The notes beneath the pieces are model-generated. The model saw only the letters and a list, made by a program, of their open reading frames with translations, was not told the origin of the DNA and searched no databases. Positions 40,055-40,667 of a DNA stretch of 64,000 nucleotides are shown here, in pieces (within the stretch, counting starts at the first letter, position 1; each line of letters starts with the position of its first letter). A program made the translations under genes and the position numbers. The stretch comes from Thermoflexus hugenholtzii (lineage in GTDB: Bacteria > Chloroflexota > Anaerolineae > Thermoflexales > Thermoflexaceae): contig NZ_CP076326.1 of assembly GCF_018771565.1 (NCBI RefSeq), positions 1,922,001 to 1,986,000 on the forward strand. The letters are read 5' to 3'.

Positions 40055-40110
40055 TCGGGGGAACGGATGCCAGCTCGAGCGCTCAGAACCTTTCACGCAG
40101 GAGGGTAAAG

Positions 40111-40353
40111 ATGCTGCGGGTGGAGATCGAGTATTGCGCGGTCTGAGGGTATCTCCCTCGAGCGGTCAGGTTGACCGAGGAGCTGTTGAAGGAGTTTGAG
40201 GGCCAGGTGGCCTCGTGGACGTTGATCCCCTCCAGCGGGGGCGTCTTCGAGGTCCGGGTGAACGGGGAGCTGGTGTTCTCGAAGAAGCAGCTGGGGCGTC
40301 ACGCGGAGGTGGAGGAGATCCGCCAGGCGCTGGCGGCCCGGCTGCGCCCATAA
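40111..40353 (+). CDS. selW: SelW/Rdx-family selenoprotein with in-frame TGA (Sec)
   Basis: Reading through TGA at 40144-40146 gives an 80-residue protein of the SelT/SelW/SelH (Rdx) thioredoxin-like family. The N-terminus MLRVEIEYCAV is followed by the TGA codon, then GYLPRAVRLTEELLKEFEG and later SSGGVFEVRVNGELVFSKKQ and GRHAEVEEIRQAL. The TGA falls at the second redox position of the CxxC motif, so the site reads Cys9-Ala-Val-Sec12. The ATG at 40111 has AGGAGGG seven bases before, while the downstream 60-codon piece opens at a TTG with no start signals. Sel genes are outside the window, so Sec use is inferred. Confidence 0.82.
40156..40180 (+). promoter_or_regulatory. candidate bacterial SECIS hairpin
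   Basis: Ten bases after the TGA, CCT pairs with AGG below a four-base 5' bulge, and CGGTC pairs with GACCG around the loop AGGTT. A five-pair upper stem and a loop containing GGU resemble SelB-binding elements. The loop G is about 26 bases from the TGA, within the usual range. It is part of the coding sequence. Confidence 0.55.
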
Positions 40354-40355
40354 CC

Positions 40356-40382
40356 GGGGGGTGGGCAAAGCGCCCACCCCCC
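40356..40382. terminator. GC hairpin between convergent genes
   Basis: GGGGGGTGGGC and GCCCACCCCCC form a perfect 11-pair stem with a five-base loop just after the selW stop. There is no T-tract on either side, so it may act through stem strength only. On the other strand it is the point where the PIN toxin remnant breaks off. Confidence 0.5.
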
Positions 40383-40384
40383 AA

Positions 40385-40439
40385 TGAGGCCGGAAACGAG
40401 GACGCTGGTATCCAGGACGACTCGCAATGCCCTTCTCAT
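40385..40439 (-). pseudogene. truncated PIN-domain toxin remnant
   Basis: From the ATG at 40439 the minus strand reads MRRALRVVLDTSVLVSGLI, the exact N-terminus of PIN-family toxins with the first catalytic Asp. After about 19 residues homology stops abruptly at the GC hairpin, and the frame continues as unrelated sequence opposite selW until a stop at 40299. The ATG overlaps the antitoxin stop (ATGA), the usual arrangement of such pairs. Only the beginning of the toxin survives. Confidence 0.72.
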
Positions 40440-40667
40440 TGCTTGGCCCTTACCGCTCGGATTTCCGCCAGGACCTCCTCATCGGTAATGCCGCGTTCCT
40501 GGGCGATCGCCCGGGCCTCTTTCACAGCGACGGCAAAGCGCTGCCTGGCCCTTTCCATCTCCCGGCGGAACTTAAAAAATGAACTCCAGCACCTCCCGGA
40601 GCTGGTCCTCAGGCAGTCCCTCCAGCTCCTGCAGGATGGTCTCACGAGTGACCGCCACGCTCCTCAT
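40436..40667 (-). pseudogene. frameshifted antitoxin of the PIN pair
   Basis: The minus strand from ATG at 40667 (AAGGAGAG before it) reads MRSVAVTRETILQELEGLP and EDQLREVLEFIF and stops at TAA 40572-40574, right after a run of six T. The following sequence in the next frame reads KFRREMERARQRFAVAVKEA and ends ITDEEVLAEIRAVRAKQ at 40436. Removing one T restores a continuous protein of about 76 residues resembling small antitoxins upstream of PIN toxins. It is either a decayed gene or a polymerase-slippage site. Confidence 0.68.

Follow-up and report, generated by a model that had tools for sequence, protein, structure and literature searches.

Bacterial SelW-like selenoproteins and a candidate in Thermoflexus

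SelW-like selenoproteins are among the commonest selenoproteins of bacteria. Members were reported from the Sargasso Sea in 2005 (PMC1088965) and from bacterial genomes in 2006 (PMC1794560), and in the GOS marine selenoproteome, described in 2008 (PMC2398784), no other family was as large. A gene at positions 40111-40353 (+) of the window, here the whole 64,000-nucleotide stretch of Thermoflexus hugenholtzii DNA analysed, shares with these bacterial proteins (PF10262; NF041051, TIGR02174) its length, an N-terminal CxxU, a thioredoxin-like fold and the combination of a UGA codon with a bacterial SECIS, and nothing mechanistic sets it apart. It is an addition to a bacterial selenoprotein family known for about 20 years, the family itself not being new; the one paper found on Thermoflexus and selenocysteine (Sec) features the genus only as a reference genome, and in the literature searched it was not found among the named SelW-like hosts.

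Among SelW-related proteins, the solved structures 2FA8, 3DEX, 2P0G and 2OBK are of the Cys type and share the predicted fold of the Thermoflexus product (TM 0.88-0.93), with CxxC in the place of CxxU in 3DEX according to the alignment, and likewise in 2FA8, 2P0G and 2OBK. Mammalian selenoprotein W (2NPB) has both CxxU and the fold in common with it (E 4e-7, TM 0.70). The eukaryotic SECIS is located in the 3' UTR, as in mammalian selenoprotein W, whereas that of the Thermoflexus gene lies inside the coding frame.

The locus is almost certainly a functional selW-like (Rdx) gene of a thermophile, with its UGA predicted from comparative sequence evidence to be read as Sec; conservation of the open frame, the presence of the machinery genes, a covarying hairpin, the predicted fold and Sec/Cys exchange at the codon together argue for this reading. 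The gene as truncated by standard callers is thereby corrected, and it indicates selenocysteine use by Thermoflexus.

Gene structure and family membership

The gene comprises 80 codons and a TAA stop, and is preceded by an AGGAGGG ribosome-binding site (40099-40105, +; read from the sequence), with 5 nt between this site and the ATG at 40111. Eleven codons from this ATG lead to the in-frame TGA, the predicted Sec codon (40144-40146, +), followed by 8 sense codons and a 60-codon ORF with a TTG start (40171-40353; TAA at 40351-40353); of the 68 codons between TGA and TAA, the last 60 are thus the TTG-initiated ORF of the standard listing. With TGA translated as Sec, the 80-residue product is MLRVEIEYCAVUGYLPRAVRLTEELLKEFEGQVASWTLIPSSGGVFEVRVNGELVFSKKQLGRHAEVEEIRQALAARLRP.

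Membership of the Rdx family is supported by a Pfam match (PF10262) covering residues 3-74 and profile positions 1-72 of 74 (E 1.3e-23; 83.4 bits against a cut-off of 22.6), and by the NCBIfam SelT/SelW/SelH models NF041051 (96.3 against a cut-off of 88) and TIGR02174, the curated cut-offs of both being passed. The CxxU redox motif (Cys9-Ala-Val-Sec12; 40135-40146, +) follows the first strand, with Cys9 and position 12, as Sec or Cys, invariant in 35 relatives. An AlphaFold2 model of the product (pLDDT 95.8) has a thioredoxin-like fold, the nearest solved structures being SelW-related proteins from Agrobacterium, Streptomyces, Pseudomonas and Vibrio (TM 0.88-0.93), followed by MIEN1 and then mouse SelW. 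This gene is the sole Rdx match in the Thermoflexus genome among the matches listed. A sequence-only reading of the same DNA had proposed this frame from ribosome-binding site to 60-codon ORF, an end-to-end Rdx protein after joining, a TGA at the second redox position of the CxxC motif (C-A-V-U) and a truncated piece or nothing from standard callers; the frame proved exact, the Pfam match and both NCBIfam models agree with the joined protein, position 12 is the invariant Sec/Cys site, and the ORF listing does contain the 60-residue ORF alone.

That listed ORF could also be taken at face value, as a TTG-initiated 60-residue protein from 40171 made alongside an 11-residue leader peptide. Such a piece would have neither the CxxU active site nor strand one of the thioredoxin-like fold, and the codons before the TGA, together with codons 13-20, are conserved as protein; two separate products are therefore exceedingly improbable, and this interpretation was rejected on the conservation and selection seen on both sides of the TGA. 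Downstream of the gene, short ORFs on the opposite strand (40380-40660, -) resemble, by eye, remnants of an antitoxin-like/PIN gene pair.

Conservation of the TGA and selection on its flanks

The TGA is kept in 8/8 Thermoflexus genomes that have the gene, and occurs at the same codon in many other Chloroflexota and in contigs labelled Gemmatimonadaceae and Acidobacteria, with TGA-form relatives reaching down to about 45% identity; in other, more distant relatives the codon is TGC or TGT. The comparison of TGA with TGC/TGT among relatives, which the sequence-only reading had proposed as a check, thus recovers both forms at exactly this codon. Among six Thermoflexus genomes, pN/pS before the TGA is 0, with no amino-acid change and synonymous differences of 0.65 per site, and after it, with the hairpin excluded, 0.089 (0.067 overall), values from sequence comparison that point to strong purifying selection on the codons of both sides.

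These data bear on the possibility of a pseudogene, in which a nonsense mutation would have struck a former Cys-type Rdx gene. The standard caller's report of the downstream part alone would suit such an origin, as would a decaying copy in one Thermoflexus genome (draft G004, L026:1258-1485), which has ACG as its start codon, a raised pN/pS of 0.27, a changed protein and one broken stem pair in its hairpin. Against it stand the recurrence of this TGA in every one of the eight Thermoflexus genomes with the gene, as well as in further classes and phyla, the strong purifying selection on both flanks and the covarying SECIS after the TGA, so that a pseudogene merits next to no credence and is refuted for the genus Thermoflexus by the conserved TGA and frame. 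The earlier argument was that a random nonsense mutation would rarely hit this codon, and the observation does go beyond chance; degeneration of the downstream frame in relatives, named there as a sign to the contrary, is confined to G004, the other Thermoflexus genomes being tightly conserved. The G004 copy looks as decay following trait loss would look, and may mean either that the Sec trait is currently being lost or that the draft is incomplete: selA was not found in this 84%-complete assembly, in which selB and tRNA-Sec are still present.

In Candidatus Thermoflexus japonica, a partial duplicate comprising the C-terminal end of selW and its 3' flank (L029:4846-4990) is present downstream of the intact gene, some 600 bases away; tblastn gave no sign of such a duplicate in the other fetched Thermoflexus loci, the window included.

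A covarying SECIS hairpin within the coding frame

A predicted bacterial SECIS hairpin (40163-40177, +) starts 16 nt after the TGA, with a stem of 5 bp (40163-40167 / 40173-40177) and an apical loop of 5 nt (40168-40172), the second base of which, G at 40169, is invariant in 36/36 TGA forms. The stem is complete, with all its five pairs, in 30/36 TGA forms and in none of the Cys forms (0/11). Across 34 TGA-form sequences, 96.5% of stem cells are paired, and double-sided changes number 27 cells, distributed over 3/5 pairs, compared with a mean of 7.1 in shuffles, none of which (0/500) reaches 27; in slid-partner controls the signal is lost (0-3). The stability of the single-sequence fold of the region exceeds that of shuffles only mildly (z -1.4), and for this reason the case for the SECIS rests on covariation.

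Codons R17-T22, which overlie the hairpin, are identical in 6/6 Thermoflexus genomes compared, and include AGG and TTG, each accounting for about 6% of its synonymous set in the window. Together, Sec and Cys forms that have or lack the hairpin make a clean comparative set in which the SECIS visibly shapes both codons and residues.

Selenocysteine machinery and the proposed decoding

The Thermoflexus genome (one contig, 3.3 Mb, 98.6% complete) was searched by family for the Sec machinery, and all four genes that the sequence-only reading had named for verification, selA, selB, selC (tRNA-Sec) and selD, are present. The tRNA-Sec has anticodon TCA (C1:1149581-1149673); further matches to the tRNA-Sec model were rejected as such, the two checked with ARAGORN being tRNA-Ser. 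SelB, of 635 residues, has a GTPase domain, a beta-barrel and the Pfam winged helices SelB-wing_2 and SelB-wing_3; SelA is matched at 4e-169 (Pfam SelA, E 2.7e-139) and SelD at 6e-113. The machinery is also present in other Thermoflexus genomes, as far as incomplete drafts allow. Near selB lies a gene for a 1940-residue NTPase-like protein (G000:C1:1426035-1431857; L017:8036-13858) that contains a long series of repeats, each about 30 residues in length and nearly identical to the others (TAEAIKEPRERAEALGAIAEAMARAGM), and that by eye resembles STAND-type proteins.

In the proposed decoding, ribosomes would start at ATG 40111, and the mRNA hairpin at 40163-40177 would recruit SelB with selenocysteinyl-tRNA(UCA) to the UGA at 40144, the charged tRNA being the product of SelA, for which SelD provides the selenophosphate. 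Sec would be inserted there and translation would run on to the TAA at 40351, the product being a small protein of thioredoxin-like fold. Its CxxU motif most likely forms a selenenyl-sulfide and has a part in thiol/peroxide redox reactions.

The residue inserted is beyond what sequence alone can show, which leaves room for UGA readthrough of another kind, whether by a near-cognate tRNA, a reassigned code or Cys insertion via the Sec machinery under selenium shortage. However, a complete Sec machinery and a SECIS are present, and 31/41 coding-like ORFs in the window end in TGA, more than in any other stop. A window-wide scan found 8 TGA codons whose flanks are both coding-like in composition, of which the selW TGA is the only one with a Cys within three codons upstream; the remaining 7 were judged to be the stop of one gene followed by the next gene in the same frame. 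Since genes here normally end in TGA, and the remaining in-frame TGAs with coding-like flanks resemble gene-to-gene junctions, the code is taken not to be reassigned, and readthrough of these other kinds is very unlikely beside Sec insertion.

A second predicted selenoprotein and the size of the selenoproteome

A Sec form of SelD is well known. The Thermoflexus selD (G000:C1:2801258-2802193, -; locus L059) likewise contains a TGA in frame, within a C-A-G-U motif, that is conserved in six Thermoflexus genomes, and SelD is accordingly a second predicted selenoprotein of the genus. A hairpin-forming stretch was noted downstream of the selD TGA. Sec-decoding organisms without formate dehydrogenase have been described as having a Sec-type SelD (PMC1794560), a generalisation that Thermoflexus fits: no Sec-type formate dehydrogenase was found in its genome, where the search gave only sub-threshold matches without stops. 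A search for tRNA selenouridine synthase in the same genome likewise found none, giving 24-residue profile fragments only. From these two results comes the tentative and rather doubtful suggestion that Thermoflexus maintains the whole Sec system to serve a minimal selenoproteome, made up mainly of SelW and of a SelD that contains Sec.

Distribution of TGA-form Rdx genes in Chloroflexota

Across 400 sampled Chloroflexota genomes, which include related genomes and so are not independent, at least 95 have a TGA-form Rdx gene among the matches listed. Within the same listed matches, a strong selA match accompanies the TGA form in 94/95 genomes (the remaining one is a draft, 77% complete), compared with 31/43 genomes with a stop-free Rdx form only (Fisher p = 2.5e-6).
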